From Rhodoferax potami (GTDB lineage Bacteria > Pseudomonadota > Gammaproteobacteria > Burkholderiales > Burkholderiaceae_C), in NCBI RefSeq assembly GCF_032193765.1, contig NZ_JAVBIJ010000001.1, forward strand, positions 2,418,001 through 2,482,000: a stretch of DNA of 64,000 nucleotides, read 5' to 3'. Each line of letters opens with the position of its first letter. Position 1 is the first letter of the stretch. A model generated the notes under the pieces. That model searched no databases. It saw nothing but the letters and a program-made list of their open reading frames with translations, and was not told the DNA's origin. The position numbers and the translations under genes are program-made. Shown here one piece after another: positions 3,540-63,977 of the stretch.

Positions 3540-5665
3540 TTTTCTTGTTCCTCAAGGGCTAGCAGTCGACGCTTCAAATGTTCGAACTCTTTGTCGCCGT
3601 CCATCGTTTTCCGGTTGGTAGAGAGAGCCATCGTTGCCGCAGATGTATCTGTTCTGCCATCCAACGGCTCCAGCCAAATCCACAAGCGACGCTCTCGAAC
3701 ATACAACATGGCGAAAATCCCCAGAATCAGCAAGGCACAACCGAGGTACACCACGGTTTTTCCGGGAGCACGAGCCACCTGGAAAACGCTAGCCTGCACT
3801 TGCGTGAAGTCCGTCAAATTCAGCAAAAACGGGGCGGGATAAAGCGGCAAATCACTCAACGCCAAGACCGACTGCGTCATGAATTGTTGAGTCTCTGCAT
3901 CCGCTGGCAATGGCTTCAGCTTCGCGGCCTCACGGGTCATCTGCACCAGCTCGTAAAGAACGCCATTCAAAATACGAACCAGCACTTCACCCGCTTTATT
4001 GCGCTCAGCTTCGGGCACGTTGGACTCGATGAAGTCGGAAATCGCTTGCAGACCCGCCACAGATCCACTCGCACCAGCAAACAGTGTCAAAGCGCGAGTC
4101 GCAGACCCGGCCAACTGCCCCATCAAATCATCTCGCTGCTTATCTACCGCTTTGCTGGCGTAACGCCGCACGGCCTCCTGGCGCATCGCGGGGTCCGCGA
4201 GTGCACGACTCACCCGCAAAAACCCATCCAGACTGCCCTCTGCGTCAGCAGGCACTCTCAAATAACGGAAAGACTCAGCAGGACTTTCCCGCATGCCCAA
4301 CAAAAACACCGACTGCCCATCACCCAGATCTACCGGCAACATGTAGTTGTTGAACTCTCTGGCTTGGCCAGCCTTATCGCGGAGTTTGTAGCTGTAGCTC
4401 GGTCCGATGTTGCGCAGTGTCTTGCCATCCTTCAACTTATTGGCAGCTCCGAGTTGGGCATTGATGGAAGTGCGCAAATCCACCCCGCGCACATCAGTCT
4501 TGCCAACCGCATCGGCAGTCAAGTTCTCCACATTGATGACACGTAAACCGGTGAATTCAACGGTCAATGCCTCTGCACCAGACGACGAGTCGCCCTGAAT
4601 AACGCTGCTACCGCCCACTACGCCGTCCACGTCGAATGATTTCGCAGCGGTGCGCAGTGACTCCCCTTTGAACTTGAGTGTCGAGCCACCATCATCAAAA
4701 CTGGATTGATAAATTTCAATCCCTTTGAAACTGGCAGGGTGATTCACTTCCACCCGGGCCGGAGTCTGCTCTCCCGTGGCTTTGTCGTGAATCACGATAT
4801 CACTGGCAAAAAGCTTGGGCATGCCCGTGGAGTAGTACTCCACAATAAACTTCTTGAGCTCAATGGCAAACGGCAGCTCCTGCAAAAGAATGCCATCCGA
4901 CTGATTCAAAATCGCGGTGCTGGACTGGGTGCCTTCGGACACCATCACGTTGCCGCGGAATGTCGGATTGCGTTCACTAAGCCGGTGCTGAGCGGGCACA
5001 TCGGCAATCATTCCGCCGCCCTTGAAGGGGGTTTTATCGGCAAACAGCATTTGGGCGCGCACCACCAAATCACCATCCAGCAACCCTCCCAAGCACACCA
5101 GCACGATGGCGCTGTGCGCAGCGATGTAGCCCAGCTTATTGCTGGCACCTGTTTTGGCAGCCAGCATCCAACCAGTGCCCCGCGTAGTTTCGCGGGACTG
5201 CAGCTTGACCTTCCAGCCGCCGCCCGTTAGCAATCCGCCCAGTCGTCGCGCTGCTGCCTCGGGCGACTCTGCGAGCTCAGCCTGCGCCTTGTGCCCGAAG
5301 GCGCGCAAACTTTGCTCGCGAATGTTTTCCTTGTAGGAGCGCAGGTCGACCAAAATTTTGGGCGTGTTTCTGGCCACGCACAAAGAAGTGCTGACCACCA
5401 GAAACGCCAAGATCAACAGAAACCACCAGGCGCTGTACACATTGAACAGACTGGCACGCTGGAACACCTCAGCCCAAAATGGGCCGAACTGGTTGATGTA
5501 ATTCCCTAAAGGCTCGTGCTGTTTCAGCACCGTACCGATCACTGAGGCAATACAAATCACCGTCAGCAAAGAAATGGCGAAGCGCATGGACGACAAAAGC
5601 TCGACGCTTGTGCGCCATGCACGGGAGCCAGCCTTTATCTCAATACCTTGGGTGGAAACGGTCAT
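3536..5665 (-). CDS. resB: System II cytochrome c biogenesis protein ResB
   Basis: This is the ResB/Ccs1 subunit of the cytochrome c synthetase (709 aa from ATG at 5665). It has N-terminal membrane helices (SMRFAISLLTVICIASVIGT, then further helices to about residue 220), a large periplasmic domain, and a final helix (VVYLGCALLILGIFAMLYVRERRLW) ending in a short cytoplasmic tail. It is thought to chaperone apocytochrome for heme ligation by ResC. A TTG nine bases upstream extends the frame, but the ATG matches family proteins better. No clear Shine-Dalgarno sequence precedes it. A terminator separates it from the upstream cytochrome gene. Confidence 0.92.
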   Translation of the reverse strand: MTVSTQGIEIKAGSRAWRTSVELLSSMRFAISLLTVICIASVIGTVLKQHEPLGNYINQFGPFWAEVFQRASLFNVYSAWWFLLILAFLVVSTSLCVARNTPKILVDLRSYKENIREQSLRAFGHKAQAELAESPEAAARRLGGLLTGGGWKVKLQSRETTRGTGWMLAAKTGASNKLGYIAAHSAIVLVCLGGLLDGDLVVRAQMLFADKTPFKGGGMIADVPAQHRLSERNPTFRGNVMVSEGTQSSTAILNQSDGILLQELPFAIELKKFIVEYYSTGMPKLFASDIVIHDKATGEQTPARVEVNHPASFKGIEIYQSSFDDGGSTLKFKGESLRTAAKSFDVDGVVGGSSVIQGDSSSGAEALTVEFTGLRVINVENLTADAVGKTDVRGVDLRTSINAQLGAANKLKDGKTLRNIGPSYSYKLRDKAGQAREFNNYMLPVDLGDGQSVFLLGMRESPAESFRYLRVPADAEGSLDGFLRVSRALADPAMRQEAVRRYASKAVDKQRDDLMGQLAGSATRALTLFAGASGSVAGLQAISDFIESNVPEAERNKAGEVLVRILNGVLYELVQMTREAAKLKPLPADAETQQFMTQSVLALSDLPLYPAPFLLNLTDFTQVQASVFQVARAPGKTVVYLGCALLILGIFAMLYVRERRLWIWLEPLDGRTDTSAATMALSTNRKTMDGDKEFEHLKRRLLALEEQEK

Positions 5666-5677
5666 GAAAAACAATCG

Positions 5678-5711
5678 AAAAAAAAGCGGGCCATCTAGAG
5701 GATGGTCCCGC
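5678..5711 (-). terminator. Rho-independent terminator after the cytochrome c4 gene
   Basis: On the minus strand a GC-rich hairpin (arms at 5686-5695 and 5701-5711, loop TAGAG, one bulged mismatch) is followed by a run of eight T residues (5678-5685). It lies downstream of the cytochrome gene at 5767-6405 and just before resB, so it probably separates the two transcripts. Confidence 0.8.
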
Positions 5712-5766
5712 CTGTTGGGGTGTCAATGCTCTCTTTGGTTCCCCTGAACCTCCGAAAGCTGACTAA

Positions 5767-6405
5767 TCAGCGCAGTCCAGCGATGTAGTCCGATACCGCC
5801 TTGATTTCGCGGTCATTCAGCTTGGCAGCCACTTGTGTCATTTGCAGGCTGTTTTTGCGAACACCATCACGGAAGGCAACCAGCTGCGCCACTGAATAGT
5901 CGGCGTGCTGGCCACTCAAGCGTGGGTATTGAGAAGGAATACCTGCGCCATTTGGGCTGTGGCAGCCAGCACACGCTGGAACTTGGCGATCAGCGATACC
6001 ACCGCGATAAATCCGCTCACCCAAGCTCACCAGATCCTTGTCCTTCGCAAAGCCGGGCTTTGCAGCCTTGGTGGCCAACCAGAAGGAGATGTTTTTCATG
6101 TCGTCATCGCTCAGGCCTGCAGCAAAGCCTTTCATGACGGCGTTATTTCTCTTGTCCGACTTGAATTCTTGGAGCTGCTTCACCAAGTATTCAGGATGCT
6201 GCTGGGCAAGCTTGGGATTACCCGCGATCGCAGAGTTACCGTCTGCACCGTGGCAGGCAGCACAAACTGCACCGAAGGCAGCCTCACCCTTGGCCAGATC
6301 CGGCTTTGCAGCTTTGGCTGACTCTTTTTTCGGCTCTTCCGCATGGGAAGAAACGGCGAGTACGGCCACGGAGGCCGCAATAATCAATTGAGCGATCAAC
6401 TTCAT
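5767..6405 (-). CDS. Diheme cytochrome c4-type periplasmic protein
   Basis: This is a 212-aa secreted diheme electron-transfer protein. A signal peptide spans residues 1-22 (cleavage after SHA). Two c-type heme sites follow, CAACH at 48-52 and CAGCH at 145-149, each in a cytochrome c domain of about 90 residues. This tandem arrangement is typical of cytochrome c4, which passes electrons to terminal oxidases. MKGFAAGLSD and the SLQMTQVA segment supply probable axial methionines. Its position upstream of resB/resC, the proteins that attach its heme, is a common Burkholderiales arrangement. It is divergent from engB. Confidence 0.9.
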   Translation of the reverse strand: MKLIAQLIIAASVAVLAVSSHAEEPKKESAKAAKPDLAKGEAAFGAVCAACHGADGNSAIAGNPKLAQQHPEYLVKQLQEFKSDKRNNAVMKGFAAGLSDDDMKNISFWLATKAAKPGFAKDKDLVSLGERIYRGGIADRQVPACAGCHSPNGAGIPSQYPRLSGQHADYSVAQLVAFRDGVRKNSLQMTQVAAKLNDREIKAVSDYIAGLR

Positions 6406-6442
6406 AGGAATGTTGTGTCTGGTAGCCGGAACTGGGCCATTC

Positions 6443-6448
6443 TACAAT
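6443..6448 (+). promoter_or_regulatory. Candidate -10 element (TACAAT) for engB
   Basis: TACAAT lies 28 bp before the chosen engB ATG at 6476, in the divergent region with the cytochrome c4 gene. No good -35 hexamer is visible at 17 bp, so the call rests on the -10 match and its position only. Confidence 0.35.
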
Positions 6449-6475
6449 GCGTGTCTGGGTTTACCTTCAATTTCA

Positions 6476-7210
6476 ATGACCAACACACAAAACCCAAAGG
6501 CGACAACGCCAACCCCCAAGCCAACAATCCCACCGGAAAAAAGCGCCGCCGCGGTTGCGCTGGGCTGGTTGCACACTGCGCGGTTCCTGACTACCGCGCC
6601 GCAATTGCACTTTCTTCCTGAATTGGATGTACCCGAAATCGCCTTCGTTGGCCGCTCCAACGCCGGCAAATCAACCTGCATCAACACACTGACGCAGCAG
6701 AAACAGCTGGCCTTCGCCTCCAAGAAACCCGGCCGCACCCAGCACATCAACCTGTTTTCACTGGGCAAACAAGGGGTCACTGATGCGGTTCTCACAGACT
6801 TGCCCGGATACGGCTACGCGGCGGTGCCCAAGCAGGACAAAATCCGCTGGCAGCAAGTCATGGCCAATTATTTGGTTACCCGCAAAAACCTGAAAGCCAT
6901 CGTGCTGATGTGTGATCCGCGTCACGGCATGACAGAGCTCGACGAAATCTTGCTGGACGTCATCCGCCCCCGTGTCGCGGAAGGCCTGAAATTCCTGGTA
7001 ATTCTGACCAAAGCGGACAAGCTCACTCGCAGCGAGGGCGCCAAAGTGCTTTCCATCACCAAACTACAGGCGGGCGGTGGCGAGGTTCGTCTCTTTTCGG
7101 CGACCAAACGCACCGGGATTGAAGACGTTGCCACCCTTTTATGGGACTGGGCACACCCCGATCTGCCAGCTCCCGCTGCGACCGCCGAGACAGCCCCTGC
7201 CGATCAATAA
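6476..7210 (+). CDS. yihA: Ribosome biogenesis GTPase EngB (YihA/YsxC)
   Basis: This is an essential GTPase of the TRAFAC class needed for assembly of the 50S ribosomal subunit (244 aa from ATG at 6476). The GTPase motifs are in order: G1 GRSNAGKST, a switch I threonine in KKPGRTQHINLF, G3 DLPGYGYA and G4 TKADK. The first about 50 residues (rich in Thr, Pro, Lys) and the Ala/Pro-rich tail are low-complexity extensions. An upstream in-frame ATG at 6410 would add 22 unconserved residues and place the -10-like element inside the gene, so I prefer 6476. The 3' end overlaps the convergent acyltransferase by 7 bp. Confidence 0.92.
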   Translation: MTNTQNPKATTPTPKPTIPPEKSAAAVALGWLHTARFLTTAPQLHFLPELDVPEIAFVGRSNAGKSTCINTLTQQKQLAFASKKPGRTQHINLFSLGKQGVTDAVLTDLPGYGYAAVPKQDKIRWQQVMANYLVTRKNLKAIVLMCDPRHGMTELDEILLDVIRPRVAEGLKFLVILTKADKLTRSEGAKVLSITKLQAGGGEVRLFSATKRTGIEDVATLLWDWAHPDLPAPAATAETAPADQ

Positions 7211-8064
7211 GGCGGATGCCAGCCCTCGGGCTGGTCCTTGAAACGCTTGTGTACCCAATAGTATTGGGCCGGCATGCGATTGATGTAAGTCTCCAGCATC
7301 TGGTTCATCCGGGCAGTATCGGCCTGTAGATCGGTGCTGGGGTAGTCTGTCCAAGCGGGCAATACCTCGATTTCATAGCCGGAAGGCACCAACTTGCAAA
7401 CAATCGGGACCACCTTCGCGCGGGACAGGCGCGCGAACCGTGAGAGTGAAGGCACCGTAGCCGCAGGACGCCCGTAAAACGGAACGTATACAGACTCTTC
7501 CGGACCAAAGTTCATATCCGGCAACAGGTACAACGGCTCCCCCGCTTTCAATCCAGCAATGATGGGTTTGACGCCCTCTATCCGCCCGAACAATCGGCCA
7601 CCGAGGCGTTTGCGCCCGGCCAGAATCCAATCGTCAGCCACTTTATTCGCCTGATCGGTGTAAATCGTCGTGAAAGACCGGTCGACTTGCTGCGTCAATG
7701 CGGTCCAACCGGCATCCAACCCGACGAAATGGGGCGCGAACAAAATCGTCGGCGCATTACCGGCCAGCTCATGGAGCGCACCCGTCAATTGCAATCGCGT
7801 CCGTATCACATCGTCAGAGGCATGCCAAAGCCAGCCGCGATCGAGCCACGCCTGCGCGAACGCCACAAAAGTTGCCACGGCCAATCGCCCACGCTGCCAA
7901 GGCGTGTGGCTCGGGAAGCAGATCCGCAGGTTGGTCAGCACCACTCGGCGGCGGGACCCTACCAGCAAAAATAGGGCGACTCCCAGCCCCGCGCCGAGCG
8001 CCCGTAGCCAAGGCAGGGGAAGGCGACCCAGCCACTCCATCACGCGCAAAATCCAACGACTCAT
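7204..8064 (-). CDS. Lipid A biosynthesis late acyltransferase (LpxL/LpxM family)
   Basis: This inner-membrane acyltransferase (286 aa from ATG at 8064) transfers an acyl chain to the primary acyl groups of lipid A or a related lipid. The catalytic HX4D motif is in FAPHFVGLDAGW. An N-terminal hydrophobic segment (WLRALGAGLGVALFLLVGSR) anchors it. The frame stays open upstream to 8163, but that would overlap the preceding gene by nearly 100 bp; the ATG at 8064 follows its stop by 4 bp and has an AGG-type ribosome site. With the next gene it forms a tandem pair, which suggests successive secondary acylations. Which is LpxL-like and which LpxM-like cannot be told by eye. Confidence 0.85.
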   Translation of the reverse strand: MSRWILRVMEWLGRLPLPWLRALGAGLGVALFLLVGSRRRVVLTNLRICFPSHTPWQRGRLAVATFVAFAQAWLDRGWLWHASDDVIRTRLQLTGALHELAGNAPTILFAPHFVGLDAGWTALTQQVDRSFTTIYTDQANKVADDWILAGRKRLGGRLFGRIEGVKPIIAGLKAGEPLYLLPDMNFGPEESVYVPFYGRPAATVPSLSRFARLSRAKVVPIVCKLVPSGYEIEVLPAWTDYPSTDLQADTARMNQMLETYINRMPAQYYWVHKRFKDQPEGWHPPY

Positions 8065-8068
8065 CCTG

Positions 8069-8920
8069 TCAACCTTTTTGTTCCGGGGCCCCTTCGGGCT
8101 GACGCGGTTGTTTATAGCGTGCATAGCCCCACAAATACTGACCGGGCAGCTCGTGGATGACACGCTCCATGGCGCGGTTGATTTGTAAAGTGGCCTGCAC
8201 TACATCTGCAGAAAGCGCTTCGTCAAACGGCCTGACACACACCCGAAAGCCCTTACCGCCGGCCAACCGTTCGCCCCAAGCCAGCACCACTCGGGCACCG
8301 GTCTGCTGGGCTAGGCGTGCCGCCAAAGTCATGGTGTAAGCCGATTTACCGAAAAATGAAACCCAGGCGCCCTGCCCCTCGGGCGGCACCTGATCGGGCA
8401 GCAAGCCCACGGCTTGGCCAGACCGCAAAGCTTTGATCAACTGCTTCACCCCCGCAAGATTGGCAGGGGCCGTGACCAAGCCCGAGCGCCGGCGGCTCGC
8501 TTCGATGATGCTTCGCAACCAGACCTGACGCGCAGGCCGGTACAGCACCGTCATGGGAGCTTGGGCAACACCGAAGCGCTGAGCATAGGCCCGGGCGGTG
8601 ACTTCGAAACTCCCCAAATGCGGCGTCAAAAAAATGACGCCTTGATGAGACTCCAAGGCCGAGTCAATTAGTTCAGCGCCATCCCATTGCACAGGCACCT
8701 CCGGGCCAATCCAGAGACGGGGTAACTCCGACACCATCTGCCCGGCTGCTGCGATCGCGGCGCGCACACCCTCCGGCTTCACACCGGCGAGACGCGCGTT
8801 CGCCTGCAAACGACGGCGATAGGTCGGCGACAAGCCATACACCAACCAGCCGCACAGCCAGCCGATGCGGTGTAACAGACCCAGCGACTGTCGGGAAAGG
8901 AATCGAAATACAAAGGCCAT
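8069..8920 (-). CDS. Lipid A biosynthesis late acyltransferase (LpxL/HtrB family)
   Basis: This is the first gene of the acyltransferase pair (283 aa). The catalytic HX4E motif is in FLTPHLGSFEVTARAYAQ, followed by the conserved arginine region (TVLYRPARQVWLR) and the GQAVGLLPDQVPPEGQG segment typical of LpxL-type enzymes. It differs from its downstream partner in having Glu rather than Asp as the acidic residue. It is divergent from metK. As in other Burkholderiales, the two probably add secondary acyl chains to lipid A in the inner membrane. Confidence 0.86.
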   Translation of the reverse strand: MAFVFRFLSRQSLGLLHRIGWLCGWLVYGLSPTYRRRLQANARLAGVKPEGVRAAIAAAGQMVSELPRLWIGPEVPVQWDGAELIDSALESHQGVIFLTPHLGSFEVTARAYAQRFGVAQAPMTVLYRPARQVWLRSIIEASRRRSGLVTAPANLAGVKQLIKALRSGQAVGLLPDQVPPEGQGAWVSFFGKSAYTMTLAARLAQQTGARVVLAWGERLAGGKGFRVCVRPFDEALSADVVQATLQINRAMERVIHELPGQYLWGYARYKQPRQPEGAPEQKG

Positions 8921-8927
8921 GGTGGGC

Positions 8928-8933
8928 TAAAAT
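8928..8933 (+). promoter_or_regulatory. Candidate -10 element (TAAAAT) for metK
   Basis: TAAAAT lies about 170 bp before metK and just before a strong stem-loop that starts at 8941, the expected transcription start. The -35 region (TCGAAA near 8904) is weak. The position matches transcription starting directly at the structured leader. Confidence 0.4.
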
Positions 8934-8940
8934 CCGCGAC

Positions 8941-9099
8941 GTCACCGAGTTATAGAACTACTTGCAGGGTGACTTCACAGGGGCAACTGATCAAAAAGGA
9001 GCCATTGTGCCTCGCCGATTCCGGCGGATCTGCTAAAGCGTTCGCTGAAAGCCCCAAAGCTCAAGCAACGCGTCTTGATGTTTATTTTGGAGAAACTTT
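8941..9099 (+). promoter_or_regulatory. Structured 5' leader of metK (candidate cis-acting RNA)
   Basis: The 160-base non-coding leader starts with a 6-bp stem (GTCACC at 8941-8946 with GGTGAC at 8968-8973). This encloses a nested 4-bp hairpin (AGTT 8948-8951 with AACT 8956-8959). An A-rich CAAAAAGGAG tract (8992-9001) and a second hairpin (CGCCG/CGGCG, about 9013-9026) follow. The metK ribosome site (TTGGAG) is near 9087-9092. The length and folding suggest regulation, possibly by S-adenosylmethionine, but I cannot match it with confidence to a named riboswitch class. Confidence 0.35.
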
Positions 9100-39172: not shown

Positions 39173-40489
39173 ATGAGTACCTACTTCTCTACCGTCGCGG
39201 CGCCCATTGCCTATGAAGGCCCGCAATCCACCAACCCGCTGGCCTTCAAGTGGTATGACAAAGACCGCATGGTCTTGGGCAAGCGCATGGAAGAGCACCT
39301 GCGCTTTGCCAGCTGCTACTGGCACACCTTCTGCTGGAACGGGCTGGACCCGTTTGGTGGCGACACCTTCCAGCGCCCCTGGCACGCCATGCCCGACCCC
39401 ATGGCCGCCGCCAAGGCCAAGGCCGAAGTGGCGTTTGAGTTTTTTGCCAAGCTGGGCGCGCCCTACTACTGCTTCCACGACCGCGATGTGGCCCCCGAAG
39501 GCGCCACCCCACGCGAGAGCGTGAACCACCTGCGCGAGATGGTCGACATCCTGGGCGCCAAGCAGCAAGCCACCGGCATGAAGCTGCTGTGGGGCACGGC
39601 CAACCTGTTTAGCCACCGCCGTTTCATGTCGGGCGCGGCCACCAACCCCAACCCCGAAGTTTTTGCCATGGGCGCCTTGCAGGTGAAAGAAGCCATGGAC
39701 GCCACCCTGAAACTGGGTGGTGAAAATTACGTGCTGTGGGGCGGCCGTGAAGGTTACGAGACCCTGCTCAACACACGCATGGGCCACGAGCTGGACCAGA
39801 TGGGCCGCTTCCTGAACATGGTGGTGGAGTACAAACACAAGATCGGCTTCAAGGGCACCATCCTGCTCGAACCCAAGCCCCGCGAACCCTCCAAGCACCA
39901 ATACGACTTTGACACCGCCACCGTCTACGGCTTTCTGTGCCGCTACGGCCTGGAGAAGGAAATCAAGGTCAACATCGAAGCCAACCACGCAACCCTGTCG
40001 GGCCACAGCTTTGAGCACGAAATTGCCACGGCCATTGACTTGGGGCTGTTCGGTTCCATCGACATGAACCGCGGCGACATGCAGTGCGGCTGGGACACCG
40101 ACCAGTTCCCCAACAACATCCCCGAGACCGCGCTGGCGATGTACCTGATCTTGAAGGGCGGCGGCTTCACCACCGGTGGCTTGAACTTTGACGCCAAAGT
40201 GCGCCGCCAGAGCATCGACCCCGAAGACATCTTCCACGGCCACATCGGCGGCATGGACGTATCCGCCCGCGCCCTGCTGATTGCCGAGAAGATGATCAAC
40301 GACGGCCAATTCGCCCAAGTGACCGAAGACCGCTACGCCGGCTGGAAAGGCAGCTTCGGCCAAGACGTGCTGACCGGCAAGCTCGGCCTGGACGCCGTAG
40401 CCCAACGCGTGCTGGACCAAAACGTGGACGTGCAACCCGTCTCCGGCCGCCAGGAGCGGATTGAGAACCTGCTGAACAGCTACATCTGA
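39173..40489 (+). CDS. xylA: Xylose isomerase
   Basis: This metal-dependent TIM-barrel enzyme converts D-xylose to D-xylulose (438 aa, the long class II type). Active-site motifs: [72 protein letters not shown] and [19 protein letters not shown], containing the metal ligands. GGAG lies before the ATG. It closes the xyl cluster and is followed by a strong terminator. Confidence 0.97.
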
Positions 40490-40515
40490 GTTGCGCCGCT
40501 AGACAGCGGAAAGAC

Positions 40516-40553
40516 AAAGGCCCCGCAGGTGAATGCCTGCGGGGCCTTTGGTT
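40516..40553 (+). terminator. Terminator after xylA
   Basis: A perfect 14-bp stem (40516-40529 with 40536-40549), five-base-plus loop, then GGTTTG. It marks the end of the xyl cluster and the left edge of the less GC-rich accessory block. Confidence 0.88.
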
Positions 40554-40722
40554 TGTCAACTTTGCGATGGACTGTGGACTGCTCTGGGCAAGCTACATAC
40601 TTTGACGAGTGGGTGCTTCTGAGAAGACAGTCTGTATTGAATCACTTTAATTATCTGATTGGATTTCGCCAGTAGTGTCGACTTTCGTCATTCACGGTCA
40701 CTCTGCAACCGCATTTCGTATT

Positions 40723-41919
40723 TCACTGCGCAATCCCTTTTTCACCAGGTTCACCATTCCATTCTACGAACCCCTCCCATCCAAACTGCTCTCGCTCGAA
40801 TTGCTCTTCCGTGCTGAGTTCTTGGAATGGAAAGAAGTTGACCGTCATATGGCCTGAATCGGGCTCACCGTCCAATGCAATGGTATTCGCGCGGGCAATG
40901 AGTTCCATCGTCCATACGATTCCAAGTCGCTCGGCAATATGCGATACATGCAGTGACACCAGTGCGTGGTGTTGGTTCCCTCGCATCTCAACGATGGTTA
41001 CGATGTGCTTGGCACTATTGATTGAGATGAAGTAGTCGAACGTTCCACTGTCCCAAGCTGCAAGACATGTCTTAAGTGCAGCATCACCTCTTGCATTTGT
41101 TTCTTCCGGGCTGTGGCTCGGACGCGCCCAGCCCACCAATTTGTTCGAATTGGTCTGGTTGTTAATTAGGCAGAGTAAGTCGTCGCGGACCATCGTGGCG
41201 CACATAGGATCCTCAAAGACCGGTATTTCTCCGTGAATTTGGTAAAGGTGATCCCCTTGCCACCTTGCGCCAGCTGGTGTCACCCAGGCGGCTACGAATG
41301 CTCCACCAACGCCGTATTTGAGCAGGTAGTCATGGACCCCATAACTCTGCAACAAAGCAACCAGATTTGTGAACATCCGCTCGGTGTGCAGTGGATGCGG
41401 GCCAAGTTGATCGAGCAGCCGCAGGAACGATGTTACGAATTTTGCAGTCCACTCATGCTGGCCACTCGACAGCTCACTTCCCAGTTGCACGAGTCCTTCT
41501 ACATCGTGCGTTGACTGATTTGACGTATCGACCAGCAGTAGGCAAGGTGTTTCGCCTTCATAGAAGGCGAAGAGAACTTCTGATTTACCTTCGCAGGGAG
41601 TGACACTAAGGAGCGCAACATTGACAGCATCACGATGACCAAGGCTAGACTTCCTTCCGTCGAAGTAGGCTTGTGTAAGGGCTCTAGCGGTGTCAACGTC
41701 GCCCGCAAACCCAACGACAGCACCATCTCCTACGGAGACTTTCAAACCTTCCTCCGACACGTACCGGAGTGAATTTAATCCCACGTTACCCTGTTGCTCG
41801 CCAAACACCGTCGTATTGCTGGCAGCAGCCATATATGTCGATGGAGTCGCTGAACTGAAGACGCTGTCAGCCGCAATAAAAACACCTTTTTTTGTACGTA
41901 GCCCAACGCAGTAAGTCAT
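40723..41919 (-). CDS. Proteasome-fold (Ntn-hydrolase) protein of unknown family
   Basis: This protein (398 aa from ATG at 41919) looks like a proteasome-type Ntn hydrolase. After Met it begins TYCVGLRTKKGVFIAADSV, so removal of Met exposes Thr1, and Asp17 falls exactly where HslV and proteasome beta subunits have Asp17. KVSVGDGAVVGFAGDVDTA (Lys59 onward) aligns with the Lys33 strand and the GFAGGTADA motif of HslV, with about 26 extra residues before it. I chose 41919 because GGGAAGGG precedes it and because Thr would become N-terminal. The remaining 200 or more residues are longer than in HslV, Anbu or the betaproteobacterial BPH proteins and I do not recognise them. No ATPase partner is adjacent. 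The DNA is visibly less GC-rich than its flanks. Confidence 0.7.
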   Translation of the reverse strand: MTYCVGLRTKKGVFIAADSVFSSATPSTYMAAASNTTVFGEQQGNVGLNSLRYVSEEGLKVSVGDGAVVGFAGDVDTARALTQAYFDGRKSSLGHRDAVNVALLSVTPCEGKSEVLFAFYEGETPCLLLVDTSNQSTHDVEGLVQLGSELSSGQHEWTAKFVTSFLRLLDQLGPHPLHTERMFTNLVALLQSYGVHDYLLKYGVGGAFVAAWVTPAGARWQGDHLYQIHGEIPVFEDPMCATMVRDDLLCLINNQTNSNKLVGWARPSHSPEETNARGDAALKTCLAAWDSGTFDYFISINSAKHIVTIVEMRGNQHHALVSLHVSHIAERLGIVWTMELIARANTIALDGEPDSGHMTVNFFPFQELSTEEQFEREQFGWEGFVEWNGEPGEKGIAQ

Positions 41920-41934
41920 ACATTCCCTTCCCAA

Positions 41935-42237
41935 GGATCATTGTTCTCGTTGGAATGTAGCCTGTCGGAGCCAGAAGGCTATTTAGAAACTCACTCATTT
42001 CTTTCGGGGGGATTGTGAGGGCGAATTGGCCAGCCAAAATCAAGAATTACTGGCCCCTGCGTTTCTCTGGGTTTATGCCTAGGCGGTCCAATCTCCTGTC
42101 GTATGGGATTGGGCTTCAACATCATTTGCTACTCAAATACGGGGGGACGGGATGACAGCAAAGGTGGTACGACGCCCCGTGGACGAAGTCTAAGAATTCT
42201 ATGTAGGCCGCGTTGGGTCGGAAGCAAGCATTGAATC
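41935..42237. other. Intergenic, no gene seen
   Basis: About 300 bp of less GC-rich DNA between the proteasome-fold gene and the MFS gene. I see no supported open reading frame. The only structure is a GGCCAG..CTGGCC inverted repeat near 42030-42056; its right end merges into a dispersed repeat copy. Confidence 0.5.
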
Positions 42238-42289
42238 AGACTCTAGCCCTTATAAAAACTGCGCGACCAGCTACTTTTTTAATAGCAAC
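42238..42289 (+). repeat. Dispersed palindromic repeat at the MFS 3' end
   Basis: GACTCTAGCCC, a variable part, then TGCGCGACCAGCTACTTTTTTAATAGCA. The right half is nearly identical to the copy at 54771-54832 in dnaE2. The stop codon and last residues (LLLKK) of the MFS gene lie within it. Confidence 0.65.
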
Positions 42290-43440
42290 CCTACCATCAC
42301 CACACCCACCGCAGCGGCAAACCACATCAGCGCCACGCTGCTGGTAGCGGTCATGGCGCCGCCAGCCACCACCGGGCCGACGACGGCACTGAGGGAGTAG
42401 GCCATGGAGAGGCTGCTGACGTTCCAGGCCATGTCGGGCGTGGGCGTCTTGGTGGCGGCAATCAGTGCCAGGGTGAGGAAGGCGGTGATCAACCCGCCCA
42501 GCACAAACATGGTGGCAAACGCCACAGTCACACCGGTCACGCAAGCCAACAGTGCAGCAGCCAGGACGGTTCCCAGCGCGGCCAGAACGCCGGCGGCGCG
42601 CAGGCCCCAGTGGTCGGCCATCCAGCCCACGGGGTATTGCAGCAGCAAGCCGCCCAGCCCGAAAGCGGTAAGCAAGTGGGCGATGCCTTCGGCCTCAAAC
42701 CCGCGGTCGCCCGCAAACACGGCAAACAAGCCGGCCAGCGCCGACTCCAGCATGCCGCCGCACAGCGCGATCAGCAGCCCCTGCCGGAAGATATGGTGCG
42801 GCCACGCTGCGCGAGCAGACTGGGGCCAACTGTTCACTTCGTGTGCCTCTTCTACCGGCGGGGTGCGGGCCAATGCCAGCGGCACCAATGCCGATACGGT
42901 AAAGCCCACGCCCACCCACAAAATGGTGTGGCCCTGCACGCCCACCCAAGCGGCAATGGCCGGGGCCACCACGGGGGCGGCGGCAATCAGCGTTTCATGA
43001 AAACCCACCAAGCGCCCGCGTGCGTGAGCGGGGGCAATGTTGTAGAGCCAGGGCTCCAGCCCCACCCAGCGCAGGCCCATGCCCAGACCGGCCAGCAGCC
43101 CGCATGCCAAGTACGCTTGCCACGGCAGAGACGCCATAGGCACCCATGCAATGCCCAGCAGCGCCACCACCGAGCCGGCCAGCCCCACCACCACCACGGT
43201 GCGTGCGCCCCAGTGGCGGCACAACCAGGGCGCCAGGCCCAGCCCGGGCATTTGCCCCATCCACAACGAAGCCGCAAAAAAGCCCAGCTGCGCAGCACTC
43301 AGGCCCTGCAGGGCCAGCCACACCGGCACGATGACAAAGATGATGCCGAACTGCCCGATCTGGGCCAGAGTGGACACCGCGTTCAGCGCGGTGATGGTGC
43401 GCCAGTCGTAGGCGCTGTGGGCTTGGGTGGTGCGGGACAT
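42271..43440 (-). CDS. MFS transporter
   Basis: This is a twelve-helix major facilitator protein (389 aa from ATG at 43440; a TTG start at 43482 is also possible). FFAASLWMGQMPGLGLAPWLCRHWG is the loop 2-3 region with a weak family motif, and ARGRLVGFHETL is typical of drug or metabolite MFS proteins. It is divergent from the glutamine synthetase operon and shares its regulatory region, so it may transport the same substrate or its product. Its C-terminal codons and stop lie in a dispersed repeat. The substrate is unknown. Confidence 0.85.
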   Translation of the reverse strand: MSRTTQAHSAYDWRTITALNAVSTLAQIGQFGIIFVIVPVWLALQGLSAAQLGFFAASLWMGQMPGLGLAPWLCRHWGARTVVVVGLAGSVVALLGIAWVPMASLPWQAYLACGLLAGLGMGLRWVGLEPWLYNIAPAHARGRLVGFHETLIAAAPVVAPAIAAWVGVQGHTILWVGVGFTVSALVPLALARTPPVEEAHEVNSWPQSARAAWPHHIFRQGLLIALCGGMLESALAGLFAVFAGDRGFEAEGIAHLLTAFGLGGLLLQYPVGWMADHWGLRAAGVLAALGTVLAAALLACVTGVTVAFATMFVLGGLITAFLTLALIAATKTPTPDMAWNVSSLSMAYSLSAVVGPVVAGGAMTATSSVALMWFAAAVGVVMVGLLLKK

Positions 43441-51358: not shown

Positions 51359-52239
51359 GGGCGGGCCGGCCCTTGAATGAACTGCACCACATCGTTCAGC
51401 ACCGGCGCCATCCACCGCAAGGGGCGTGACAAAGCAGCCACCAGCGTGATGTGGTTCACCCGGGTGTGCATTTTTACGAGCACCGGCACCTGAGCAGCGC
51501 CCAGGCGCTTAGCAATACCCGCGGTATTACGCTGGGGATTGACCAAGTCATCTTCCAAAGCGGCCAGCAGCAAGGCACGTGGGGCGCCCGGCTGTACATG
51601 GTCGAGTGGCTGGGAGTTGGCGGGGTAGTTCGGGTGGTGGAACACCGGCATCGCGTCTAGATTGGTCAGGGGCAAAAAGTCATACGGGCCGGCCAAGCCA
51701 ATCCAGCCGGCCAATTGCTGGGGTGAGCGCCCGTGGGCGGCCAACCAACGGGGATCCAGCGCCATCATGGCGGCGTTGTAGGCGCCCGCGCTATGCCCCA
51801 TGACATACACCTTGTCGGGGTTGCCGCCCCAGTCGGCAGCATGGTCCAGCCCGTATGACAAGGCGGCCGCGCTGTCCCGCAGAAAATCGGGGTAGCGCAC
51901 CTCGGGGTACAGCCGGTAGTCGGCCACCAGGGTGAGTATTCCGCGCGAGGCCAGCGCCTCCCCCACAAAGCGGTACTGCGCCCGCTCGCCGCGGTTCCAT
52001 GAGCCACCATAATAAAACACCACCACAGGCCACCCCTTGGCCGGCTGTGCGGCGCGTGGCACATACACATCAAGGCGCTGGCGGTGCAGTGGGCCGTAGG
52101 TCACGCCCTCGTGCAAGGTGTAAGTCCGTGAGGGGGTTAAAAAATTCAACACATCCACGGGCGAAAAGCCTGCAGCCAGGGCTGCGGGGTTCGCCAGGGT
52201 GGTCAAGAGTGCAAAGAAGAGGCTGATCCGGTGGTTCAT
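51355..52239 (-). CDS. Exported alpha/beta hydrolase (BD-FAE/carboxylesterase-like)
   Basis: This is a 294-aa secreted alpha/beta hydrolase. The signal peptide (FFALLTTLANPAALA) is followed by the oxyanion stretch VVFYYGGSWNRGERAQYRFV and the nucleophile elbow GHSAGAYNAA. HTRVNHITLVAA gives the catalytic His. YGGSW instead of HGGG is typical of the BD-FAE family. Substrate is unknown. I use ATG at 52239; ATG at 52254 is also possible. Confidence 0.82.
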   Translation of the reverse strand: MNHRISLFFALLTTLANPAALAAGFSPVDVLNFLTPSRTYTLHEGVTYGPLHRQRLDVYVPRAAQPAKGWPVVVFYYGGSWNRGERAQYRFVGEALASRGILTLVADYRLYPEVRYPDFLRDSAAALSYGLDHAADWGGNPDKVYVMGHSAGAYNAAMMALDPRWLAAHGRSPQQLAGWIGLAGPYDFLPLTNLDAMPVFHHPNYPANSQPLDHVQPGAPRALLLAALEDDLVNPQRNTAGIAKRLGAAQVPVLVKMHTRVNHITLVAALSRPLRWMAPVLNDVVQFIQGPARP

Positions 52240-52303
52240 CCACCGGATACGCACGCCGATGGCTTTTGGATTCAGCCCCGGATTCGAGTTCTGTTTGACA
52301 GTA

Positions 52304-52726
52304 TCAACGCACCAACAACACAGGCACTTTGCAATGCGCCAGCACCTGGGTGGCGACAGAACCCATTACCAAACTGGCAACCGCGCCATTGCCATGCGAA
52401 CCCATGATGACGAGGTCATATTTGCCCTCGGTTGCGATCTTGGAAATCACCTCGCCCGGCGAACCCGCCTTCCACATGCTCTTGGCGCTGATGTTGTGGC
52501 GCTGCAAGAACTTGTCGATCGGAGCAATGACCTTCTCAGCCTCGTCGGCATAGTATTTTTCGACGATCGCCTTGCCCACAGCAGCACGCGCTCTTGGGGG
52601 TACTGCAAACGGTACGGTGAGCACGGTGTACTCATTGGAAGGGGTGAACAAGGTGTCGTGATTAACCAAATAGGCCAACATTTTCTTGCTGTAAGCACTT
52701 CCATCAACCGCCAGGAGAATCTTCAT
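52304..52726 (-). CDS. Universal stress protein (UspA family)
   Basis: This is a 140-aa single UspA domain. KILLAVDGSAYSKKMLAYLV starts the fold and GSHGNGAVASLVMGSVATQV fits the ATP-binding G-2x-G-9x-G(S/T) pattern, so it probably binds ATP. It lies alone between the esterase gene and dnaE2. Confidence 0.92.
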   Translation of the reverse strand: MKILLAVDGSAYSKKMLAYLVNHDTLFTPSNEYTVLTVPFAVPPRARAAVGKAIVEKYYADEAEKVIAPIDKFLQRHNISAKSMWKAGSPGEVISKIATEGKYDLVIMGSHGNGAVASLVMGSVATQVLAHCKVPVLLVR

Positions 52727-52832
52727 ATCAGTCGCCTTTTAAGGTGTACAAAAGCCCGAGGCTATCGACTTCGGCGCGATTCGTACACCAGAGGCCCTGT
52801 AGCTTGTGGCACATTGCGCTGGATCAAATTTG

Positions 52833-55800
52833 CTAATGAAAGTCCCGACTGGTCGTCGCCAGCTCGCCCAGCAGGGGCGTCATGTCCACCACGCGCTTGG
52901 CAATCACATGGCGGACTTGGCCGCCGGTGGCCTCGTCACGCTGCCACACGCCGTACACCGCCATCAGCCGGGCGCGATAGACTGCGTCGCGGAACTGCTC
53001 TTTCACCGCTTTCCAGACGATGATGTTCACACTGCCGGTTTCATCCTCAAGTGTCACAAACACCACGCCTTTGGCGGTACCCGGTTGCTGGCGGGAGGTG
53101 ACGATACCGCAGGCACGCACCAGGCGGCCACTGGGATAGTTGCTCATCTGGGCCGCGGTCAGCAGCTTCTGTTTTGATAGCTGCTCCCGCAATAGCTGCA
53201 AGGGGTGGGAGCGCAAAGTGAGACCGGTAGCGGCGTAGTCAAAGGTCACTTCCTCACCCTCGTCGGCCGGAGGAAGCTCCAACACATCCTCCTCAATCGG
53301 CACGCCCTGTAGCAGCGCGGGTGCGGGGCGCAGGGCGGAGGCGTCCCACACCTGCTGGCGGCGGTGGCCGCTGAGGCTGATGAGGGCATCGGCACTGGCG
53401 AGCGCTTTGAGGTCACCTGCATCGAGGGCGCAGCGCAGAGCCAAATCCTGCGTGCTGGTGAACGGGCCGTTTTCGCGTGCAGCGCAGATGCGCTCCGCCA
53501 CTTCTTTCTGCAAGCCACTCACCATGCGCAGCCCCAATCGGATGGCGGGTTGGGTTTGCAATGCCCATCCGTACGGATCGCTATCAGGCGTTTGCGGCTG
53601 CTCAAGTGTGCAGTCCCACGCGCTGTGCAGCACATCCACGGCGTGCACTTGGACACTATGGCGACGAGCGTCTTGAACCAGCTGTGCCGGGCCGTAAAAA
53701 CCCAGCGGCTGGCTGTTGAGCATGGCTGCCAGAAAACAAGCCGGCTCATGCCGCTTGAGCCAGCAGCTCACGTACACCAGCAGCGCAAAGCTGGCTGCAT
53801 GGCTCTCGGGAAAGCCGTATTCGCCAAAGCCCTCAATCTGCTTGAACAGCGTGTCAGCAAACTCCTGCGTGTAGCCGTTTTTGAGCATGCCACCCACCAG
53901 CCGTTCGTAGAACTTGCCCACGCCACCCTTGCGCTTCCAGGCGGCCATAGAGCGGCGCAGCTGGTCGGCCTCGCCCGCCGTGAAGTCGGCCGCCGCCATA
54001 GCGATCTGCATGACCTGCTCCTGAAAAATCGGTACACCCAGGGTGCGCTTCGAAGCCTCTTTCAGAGCAGGAGACTCGTACATCACCGCTTGCGGGTTGG
54101 CACGCGCCTTGAGGTAGGGGTGCACCATACCACCCTGAATCGGCCCCGGCCGCACGATGGCCACCTCCACCACCAGGTCGTAAAAGCATTGCGGCTTCAG
54201 GCGCGGCAGCATGCTCATCTGCGCCCGGCTCTCGATCTGGAACACGCCCACCGTGTCGGCCTGGCAGATCATGGCGTAGGTGGCGGGGTCTTCGGCAGGC
54301 ACGTCTTGCATGCGCATGGGCGCGCCGCGCCACTGGCCGATGAGGTGCAGGCAGCGGCGTATGGCGCTGAGCATGCCCAAGGCCAGCACATCCACTTTCA
54401 AGAGGCCCACCGCATCAAGGTCGTCCTTGTCCCACTGGATGACCGAGCGGTCTGGCATGGATGCGTTTTCCACCGGCACCAGCCGGGTTAGCGGGCCTTG
54501 CGTGAGCACAAAGCCGCCTACGTGCTGGCTCAGGTGGCGAGGAAAATTTTGCAGTTGCGTGGCAAGGTCCAGCCAGAGTTGCAGGCGGCGCAAAGGCGGC
54601 AGGGGCGAACCGTCCACCAACAGGCCAAGCTCAGCAGCGCCACCCTCGGAAGCCAGAGCGGCAGGGCGCCCAGCTCCGTGTCCCCCGCCCGCGTTGCGGG
54701 CTCCTCCTTGACCTACGCTGTGCGCCCTGCCACTCTGGCTCTGTCCTGCCGCACCATAAGCCTGCACTTTTGAATCAAAACCACCTCCAGCGCTCACGGA
54801 ATCTGCGCTACCAGCTACTTTTTCGATAGCAGCCTGCAGCCGCTCCACCAGTACCGCACGGCTGTACATGCCCGGATGCTCCTTGGCCATGGCCGTAATC
54901 AGCACCTCAGGAATCTCCAGCGCCCGCCCCACATCACGGAGTGCGCTGCGCGGTCGATAGCTGGCCACCACGGCGGTAATGGCGGCGCGCTCCCGGCCGT
55001 ATTTGGCGTAGATGTATTGGATGACCTCTTCGCGCCGCTGGTGCTCAAAGTCCACATCAATGTCGGGCGGCTCGTCGCGCTCCTTGGAGATGAAGCGCTC
55101 AAACAGTACGTTCATGCGGCTGGGGTCCACCTCGGTCACGCCCAGGCAATAGCAGACCGCAGAGTTCGCCGCCGAGCCCCGCCCCTGGCACAAGATGCCG
55201 CGCCCCCGCGCAAAGCGCACCAGGTCGTGCACGGTGAGAAAGTACATCTCGTACTTCATGTCGGCAATCAGCGCGAGCTCATGCTCCACCTGCGTGCGCA
55301 CGTTGGGCGGCATACCGGCCGGATAACGCTCCAAGGCGCCCTCCTCGGTGTACTGCCGCAGAGTCTGCGCCGGGGTGTGGCCGGGCAGCACGGCCTCCAT
55401 GGGGTACTGGTAGCGCAGCGCATCCAGTGTGAAGCTGCAGCGCCCCGCCACCACCAGCGTGTGGGCCAGCTCATCGGGCGTGAACAGGGCCGCGAGCCGG
55501 GCGCGACTGCGCAGGTGGTGCTCGGCATTGGCCTGCAGCGCAAAGCCGCACTGCGCTACCGGCAGGCCGCAGCGCACGGCGGTCAGCACATCGTGCAGCG
55601 GCTTGCGCGAGCGGGTGTGCATGCGCACCTGCCCGGTGGCAATAGGGGCCAGCCCGCTCACCGCTGCAATCTGCTGCCAATGCGCCCGCTCCAAAGCTTG
55701 CATGCCGCCCAGACCCGCTGTGACTGCCAGCCAGCAATTTTGGCCAAATAGGCCTCTGACGCCCGCTGCTATTGCGCAAGCAGCTTCTGTTTTGATAGCA

Positions 55801-63559: not shown

Positions 63560-63592
63560 ATTGCGTCCACAACAATTGATCGTGGACACAAT
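63560..63592. repeat. Inverted repeat at the apparent IS66 left end
   Basis: Arms 63560-63570 and 63582-63592 (10 of 11 matched) with an 11-base spacer. It separates the restriction remnant from tnpA. Confidence 0.5.
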
Positions 63593-63977
63593 GCTCAAAG
63601 ACTCAGACACCCCGAGGTACGCCGTGCGCCGTACCAAGCGAACCTATTCAGCAGATACCAAAGCCGCGTTGCTTGCCGCGTGCAGGGCGCCGGGCGCGTC
63701 CATCGCAGCGGTCGCCAGCGCGCATAGCATGAACGCCAATGTGTTGCACCGCTGGCTGAAGGAGCAAGCACAGCCGGACGCTCACGCCGAAGCCCTTCCG
63801 TCAGAGCCGATAGACATGCCAGCATTTATCCCGGTGCCCCTGCTCACGCAAACGGCAGAGCCCGTGGAGCGCACGATTCGTGTGGAGGTCCGCAAAGGTA
63901 GTTTGAGCATGACCGTCACTTGGCCCATGTCTGCTGCCCATGAATTTGCCGGCTGGTCGGGCGCCCTTCTCAAGTGA
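63591..63977 (+). CDS. tnpA: IS66 family TnpA
   Basis: This is a 128-aa small DNA-binding protein of the IS66 type. An HTH region (KAALLAACRAPGASIAAVAS, then ANVLHRWLKEQ) is the family hallmark. The C-terminal region ends in RVEVRKGSLSMTVTWPM. It is followed by tnpB with a 4-base overlap. Confidence 0.87.
   Translation: MLKDSDTPRYAVRRTKRTYSADTKAALLAACRAPGASIAAVASAHSMNANVLHRWLKEQAQPDAHAEALPSEPIDMPAFIPVPLLTQTAEPVERTIRVEVRKGSLSMTVTWPMSAAHEFAGWSGALLK

Follow-up and report, generated by a model that had tools for sequence, protein, structure and literature searches.

Gene, active-site residues and predicted fold

We analyzed a stretch of 64,000 nucleotides from the genome of Rhodoferax potami (the window; contig NZ_JAVBIJ010000001.1, positions 2,418,001 to 2,482,000). 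On its minus strand, at 40723..41919, lies a gene whose 398-amino-acid product is probably a free-standing proteasome-like N-terminal nucleophile (Ntn) hydrolase. For this gene we computed the predicted fold, the conserved residues, the rarity of the family, the variability of the surrounding chromosomal slot and the foreign composition. An earlier note, made from the sequence alone, had pointed to an open reading frame (ORF) here. The frame is real and intact (398 codons, ATG start, TGA stop, zero internal stops) and runs on the minus strand; the plus strand across the same interval is closed by stops.

Three protein searches retrieved 32 homologue clusters including the window's own (27 + 4 + 1). 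As scoring was limited to about 8000 candidates per search, the family is possibly larger. The organism names among the clusters are Burkholderia ubonensis, B. latens, Comamonas testosteroni, an Aromatoleum metagenome genome and Massilia aquatica. The alignment took in 24 of the 32 clusters, the most distant being P0032 (26% identity to the query). The eight omitted clusters are P0024, which has the MTYC motif and a short C-terminus, and seven that are annotated without the Thr1 region (P0008, P0014, P0015, P0017, P0018, P0019 and P0026). For P0018, a comparison of sequences indicates that the missing N-terminus is probably a start-call error: all of its 334 residues are found unchanged in P0009 from residue 76, and since P0009 has VTYC upstream, the true start of P0018 and P0009 is likely a GTG.

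Loss of the start methionine leaves Thr-Tyr-Cys at the N-terminus. The earlier note had proposed Thr1, Asp17 and Lys59, numbered after methionine removal, as counterparts of proteasome catalytic residues, and all three stand where it placed them. With the methionine counted they are Thr2 (codon 41914..41916), Asp18 (41866..41868) and Lys60 (41740..41742, the equivalent of proteasome Lys33), all on the minus strand. Because each is invariant in the 24 aligned relatives, the pattern is, as judged from the alignment, more than chance. No aligned homologue lacked these residues, with the reservation of the seven clusters annotated without the Thr1 region. In the structure alignment that bears on the placement of Thr1, residue 2 of the model pairs first with chain residue 1 in several K/L chains. 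Two further residues, invariant in 24 of 24, also have candidate counterparts. Gly73 (41701..41703, minus) is likely the oxyanion-hole glycine (proteasome Gly47), an assignment made from its order at the end of the next strand and not from superposed coordinates, and Ser148 (41476..41478, minus) is, from sequence order, the likely equivalent of proteasome Ser129. Equivalents of Thr1, Asp17, Lys33 and Gly47 of the proteasome-like family (Fuchs et al. 2021) are present in all 24 aligned sequences. The invariant residues, methionine counted, are among others T2, Y3, C4, D18, T37, G40, E56, K60, G73, G147, S148, Y193, G203, G205, W220, Q221, F294, D295, N301, M312 and H318, and F39 and E41 are kept in 23 of 24.

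The predicted fold comprises the beta-sheet core and the flanking helices of the proteasome beta fold, namely H1 (residues 75-90), H2 (95-106), H3 (154-171) and H4 (176-193). The secondary structure of the model, together with Foldseek and VIA matches, supports the Ntn fold suggested in the earlier note over a non-Ntn fold. The core covers residues 1-230 (41230..41919, minus), its end being uncertain, and is followed by a C-terminal part of residues 231-398 (40726..41229, minus), for which folding alone gave no clear fold match in the Protein Data Bank (PDB). Structure matches in BFVD (11 at E ≤ 0.001, including phage proteasome-like proteins) indicate a common fold only. The predicted insertion between the Asp17 strand and the Lys33-equivalent strand occupies residues 20-55 (41755..41862, minus), is modelled at low confidence and carries the invariant T37 and G40. 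It lengthens the distance from Asp17 to Lys59 to 42 residues, as had been claimed, compared with 16 from Asp17 to Lys33 in the proteasome.

Relationship to known proteasome-like proteins

Scans of the protein against NCBIfam and PADLOC returned no match (PADLOC at E ≤ 10), and the best Pfam match was MA3 at E 0.23. Among 19 family members, the best Pfam match was at E 0.027, in one member, and the best PHROGs match at 0.025, also in one member, with a faint HslV-type match at E 0.2. A profile search of PDB sequences found a designed Anbu at E 2.4 (profile positions 2-32), ranked behind an unrelated row at 0.16.

Profile-profile comparison with 14 Anbu sequences from this and other genomes gave a probability of 89.6 (P 1.9e-6) in a local alignment of residues 1-19 only; the printed alignment is unreliable beyond residue 19. 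Over these 19 residues (53% identity) the protein has the N-terminal MTYC...G...DS motif with Thr1 in common with Anbu. Comparison with 24 HslV sequences by hhalign gave a probability of 1.5, and an hmmsearch with the family profile reached a best E of 5.6e-6 in the Anbu set of 14. Given a local Anbu match of 19 residues that scores higher than HslV, the protein is, by sequence comparison, nearer to Anbu than to HslV, yet not an Anbu. Likeness along the whole subunit and Anbu length were not found: the local match stops at residue 19, and the lysine is at position 59.

The protein resembles Anbu in starting at Thr1 with MTYC, in its Asp17-Ser18 and Lys strand, in its Ntn fold and in having neither a propeptide nor an AAA+ partner (PMC5666114, PMC6376114). 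It differs in its 398 residues, compared with 240-287 in the 14 Anbu sequences and 172-185 in the 24 HslV sequences, which bears out the unusual length remarked on in the earlier note. Anbu also lacks the insertion, shows no local profile match after residue 19 and is often found in an operon with ATP-grasp, alpha-E and transglutaminase genes. The genome carries a separate Anbu at about C1:596.3-597.2 kb. Among ORFs of at least 180 codons in 9 kb around it we recognized by eye no ATP-grasp, alpha-E or transglutaminase gene, so the operon feature is not strict. Upstream of this Anbu (L093, G000:C1:591500-600500, 4842-8944 minus), AAA-type ATPase-like and DNA-methyltransferase-like ORFs were seen by eye, and this region is perhaps another insertion site.

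Compared with the remaining groups, the protein shares with HslV the fold class and the catalytic Thr; it differs in length and in that HslV has an HslU partner, and the genome has a separate HslV. From 20S proteasome subunits (PF00227) it is set apart by the absence of a sequence match and of a propeptide and by its extra insertion and C-terminal part. Connectase belongs to the same family and is a ligase; it is marked by an insertion between strands 3 and 4, with helices H1-H2 missing (PMC8665760). Compared by description and not by sequence, the present protein is like connectase in superfamily, in the insertion near the Lys strand and in an extra C-terminal domain, found in some connectase forms, and unlike it in that connectase is archaeal and lacks H1-H2. 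On the same descriptive basis, PMI-5 is similar in its proteobacterial origin and its S3/S4 insertion predicted to be unstructured, and dissimilar in an H3/H4 insertion, of which none is seen in the present model (154-171, 176-193). RPC and DAH are likewise described as having a C-terminal domain without known structure; RPC lacks H2, present here at 95-106 (PMC8665760).

The protein is apparently undescribed and probably forms a subfamily of its own, but it may be part of a subfamily already published, such as those three, with which it was compared by description. About three named family members were presumably public by 2020. The 22 new proteasome-like subfamilies of Fuchs et al. (2021), in whose genomic surroundings those authors saw nothing that pointed to a particular function, came from clusters filtered to a minimum of 10 representatives in the sequences of August 2020 (PMC8665760). 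With so few named members public at the time, the present family could have fallen below that limit. In a genome of the same order, the PF00227 search also returned a short proteasome-like protein with an MTTCVVVKK start (L076, G007:C1:4148000-4149200), by eye neither Anbu nor HslV.

Distribution of the family

The gene is present in a single copy in its own genome. Homologues were found in 1 of 399 genomes in a sample of the order, 1 of 198 relatives and 1 of 399 in a sample of the family, each time the window's own genome (the samples overlap). In a sample of the class there were four matches in 369 genomes, namely the own genome and three Anbu N-termini, which we rejected as family members. 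A pattern scan of one genome per species across 84,980 species matched 111 stretches, and the one relative among them is that of Massilia aquatica, which is itself the only carrier among 17 genomes of its genus and 392 of its family. Several of these counts are lower bounds, because scoring was confined to the top candidates of a preliminary pass. No homologue was detected in plasmids, phage records or viral contigs (the 1 and 19 stretches matched in two viral scans include no relative), and carriage by a phage, plasmid or virus was rejected on this basis.

A variable slot with foreign composition

The gene is the sole recognized cargo of a slot at 40551..42205 (GC 0.507), between the convergent 3' ends of xylA and a major facilitator superfamily (MFS) gene, in keeping with the solitary setting described in the earlier note. 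Its GC content is 0.517, and at third codon positions (GC3) it is 0.524, compared with a GC3 of 0.76-0.85 in its eight neighbours; the lower GC relative to the surroundings thus holds. No window ORF in a non-overlapping list (at least 90 codons) has a lower GC3, and one, a 274-codon frame at 52199-53023 that overlaps a long gene of the opposite strand, equals it at 0.52. The left border of the slot is a 15-bp perfect inverted repeat after xylA (40515..40550, plus), a terminator-like stem. The terminator that had been proposed agrees with this repeat in place, but a terminator scan of 40480-42300 returned no site; a promoter scan of the slot was also empty. The proposed flanking repeats fared worse: there are no direct repeats in 40480-42320, and the only other inverted pair (78% match) is chance-like. 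A second-copy remnant upstream, suggested by the 23-nucleotide inverted pair 41312-41334/42120-42142, was rejected as chance. A tblastn search of the 24 relatives against 41920-42270 gave a best E of 0.013 (in a tiny search), in scattered pieces with no pattern.

The neighbours on the xylA side are presumably an ABC ATPase, a ROK regulator, a xylulokinase-type FGGY kinase and xylose isomerase (the xylose names come from sequence and Pfam class), and those on the other side are MFS, glutamine synthetase, class-III aminotransferase and GntR genes. These eight include no unfoldase or ring-partner gene, no hslU and no ATP-grasp, alpha-E or transglutaminase gene. The six scanned neighbours in Massilia also differ from the Anbu operon.

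We compared the slot across the genus. A XylA match was found in 40 of 100 same-genus genomes including the own, and the region after xylA was taken from the ten best of the other 39. Homology ends at 40502-40578 in all ten. In seven, unrelated DNA of 1.6 to 7.0 kb intervenes before it resumes at 42205-42260 (in L034 for just 70 bases), and in three it does not resume within the stretch examined. The slot of L034 holds an AbiJ-NTD4 protein (PF18863, E 1.3e-25), an arsenate-reductase-like gene (below the curated cut-off) and a flavin mononucleotide (FMN)-oxidoreductase gene. By eye, L037 carries two insertion-sequence-type transposases, and L039 and L041 carry regulators or enzymes. The slot is thus a place where accessory genes are exchanged, and one of its occupants is clearly of a defence type. 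The deviant composition and the homology breaks at the slot borders support acquisition of the gene from elsewhere, as had been suggested.

The slots of L035 and L036 hold a similar low-GC protein of 740-761 amino acids, which at L036:433-2718 (minus) has no Pfam, NCBIfam or PADLOC match. The main cargo of L042 is a 309-amino-acid protein (L042:908-1837, plus) with no family match, the C-terminal part of which appears HEPN-like by eye. Near the window edge, at 63561-63977 (plus), an ORF resembles by eye the small helix-turn-helix protein of an IS66-type element.

Proposed function and alternatives

Our reading, to which we assign a probability of about 0.75, is that the gene encodes a free-standing proteasome-like Ntn-hydrolase with a lid, carried as single-gene cargo and serving an accessory stress or defence role. 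The catalysis, the role of the lid, the target and the physiological role that we infer are as follows. Start methionines are removed by methionine aminopeptidase, which here would expose Thr1. This would suffice, as there is no propeptide, and the Thr1-dependent self-processing raised in the earlier note would be unneeded. The Thr1 hydroxyl, aided by its own amino group, Lys59, Asp17 and Ser147, would then attack an amide bond, with Gly72 forming the oxyanion hole. In the mechanism described for the family, the Thr1 hydroxyl acts as nucleophile and the amino group of Thr1 as base, Lys33 and Asp17 assist, and Gly47 forms the oxyanion hole (PMC8665760, PMC5666114); each of these residues has a conserved counterpart in the present protein. 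The insertion beside Lys59 may be a lid or specificity loop, because it sits about where that of connectase does and T37 and G40 are invariant. The C-terminal part may bind a substrate or partner or shape an oligomer. The enzyme would need no ATPase and would act on one target or a few; a specific target, as opposed to bulk degradation, is in line with the lack of an unfoldase among the eight neighbours. The gene would travel as single-gene cargo into the variable slot, and its role is most likely in stress or defence.

Several results weigh against this reading. PF00227 is unmatched by the protein even at E 10 and by all of the 19 members at E ≤ 1, and therefore family membership rests on the predicted fold and the residues. 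The five models have mean pLDDT (predicted local distance difference test) values of 76.8 to 63.6, and the insertion is modelled without confidence (pLDDT <50 for residues 21-57). The hmmsearch with the family profile also gives HslV a weak score (best E 6.9e-4, set of 24). Three of the five clusters with organism names (P0017, P0018, P0019) are among the seven of the 32 whose annotation lacks the Thr1 region. Anbu, which has these residues too, showed neither peptidase nor amidase activity (PMC6376114). The active-site residues that led the earlier note to speak of a peptidase are present, but the term goes beyond them, given that Anbu has them and showed no such activity and that connectase is a ligase (PMC6376114, PMC8665760). 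The substrates on which Anbu was inactive were standard proteasome substrates (PMC6376114); inactivity on these would therefore not refute an enzyme here.

The most probable of the alternatives, though of fairly low probability, is a solitary anti-phage gene whose product would cut or modify a protein of the phage or the host during infection, and which is carried in slots where defence genes are swapped. The rare, patchy distribution, the low GC and the AbiJ-domain occupant of the slot in L034 point this way. So does the Massilia homologue, which is followed on the same strand by AAA/McrB-like and McrC-like genes and has, about 3 kb upstream, a RES-domain gene. The Massilia McrB/McrC-like pair lies at L002:11321-14942, and its AAA protein matches REase_II in PADLOC and, with an N-terminal stretch, PD-T4-1 (residues 28-212, E 2.2e-15). 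However, only two neighbourhoods of the gene itself are readable, and the other slot cargo is mixed (insertion sequences, regulators, oxidoreductases). Among four slot-position proteins scanned from relatives, three have no Pfam match and none has a PADLOC match, and the protein itself is not covered by any PADLOC model. The absence of homologues from phage and plasmid records and viral contigs neither supports nor excludes defence. The quality-control or defence role put forward in the earlier note is not established; the hint of defence comes from two neighbourhoods, with the AbiJ-domain gene and the McrBC-type genes, and two neighbourhoods cannot settle a role. Neither a proteasome-like defence protein nor the present family is described among the titles and abstract openings listed from open-licence PMC papers (20 of 77 and 15 of 134 papers in two of the searches). 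It is unlikely, in our estimate, that the protein is a single-gene immune effector in which Thr1, held by the lid, is freed when the C-terminal domain senses infection and then cleaves or ligates an essential target.

A connectase-like transpeptidase or ligase, in which the insertion covers the acyl-enzyme and keeps water out, appears rather improbable. The connectase insertion between strands 3 and 4 is in about the same place (PMC8665760), and T37 and G40 are invariant here, but the present protein has both H1 and H2, and its insertion is modelled at low confidence. We consider it quite improbable that the protein is a divergent Anbu keeping an ancestral job, perhaps cleaving tags from the operon's ATP-grasp enzyme; although the N-terminal motif is common to both, the similarity ends after 19 residues, the insertion and more than 100 extra residues follow, the Anbu operon genes are absent from the eight neighbours and a separate Anbu gene is already present in the genome. 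A catalytically dead relic or pseudo-enzyme, which the extreme rarity and the seven clusters without the Thr1 region might suggest, is very improbable given the intact frame and candidate catalytic residues that are invariant in 24 of 24 relatives, down to the 26% identity of P0032.

With no propeptide and no obvious partner, the free-standing Ntn-hydrolase that we propose should be easy to express and assay, and the swap slot, which in a relative holds a defence-type gene, provides a context that allows a direct and cheap test of function. If the protein were an immune effector, it would represent an anti-phage system on a proteasome-like core without an ATPase. If it is separate from the known groups, it extends the proteasome-like family by a subfamily in which an insertion at the active site is conserved and the C-terminal domain has no match.
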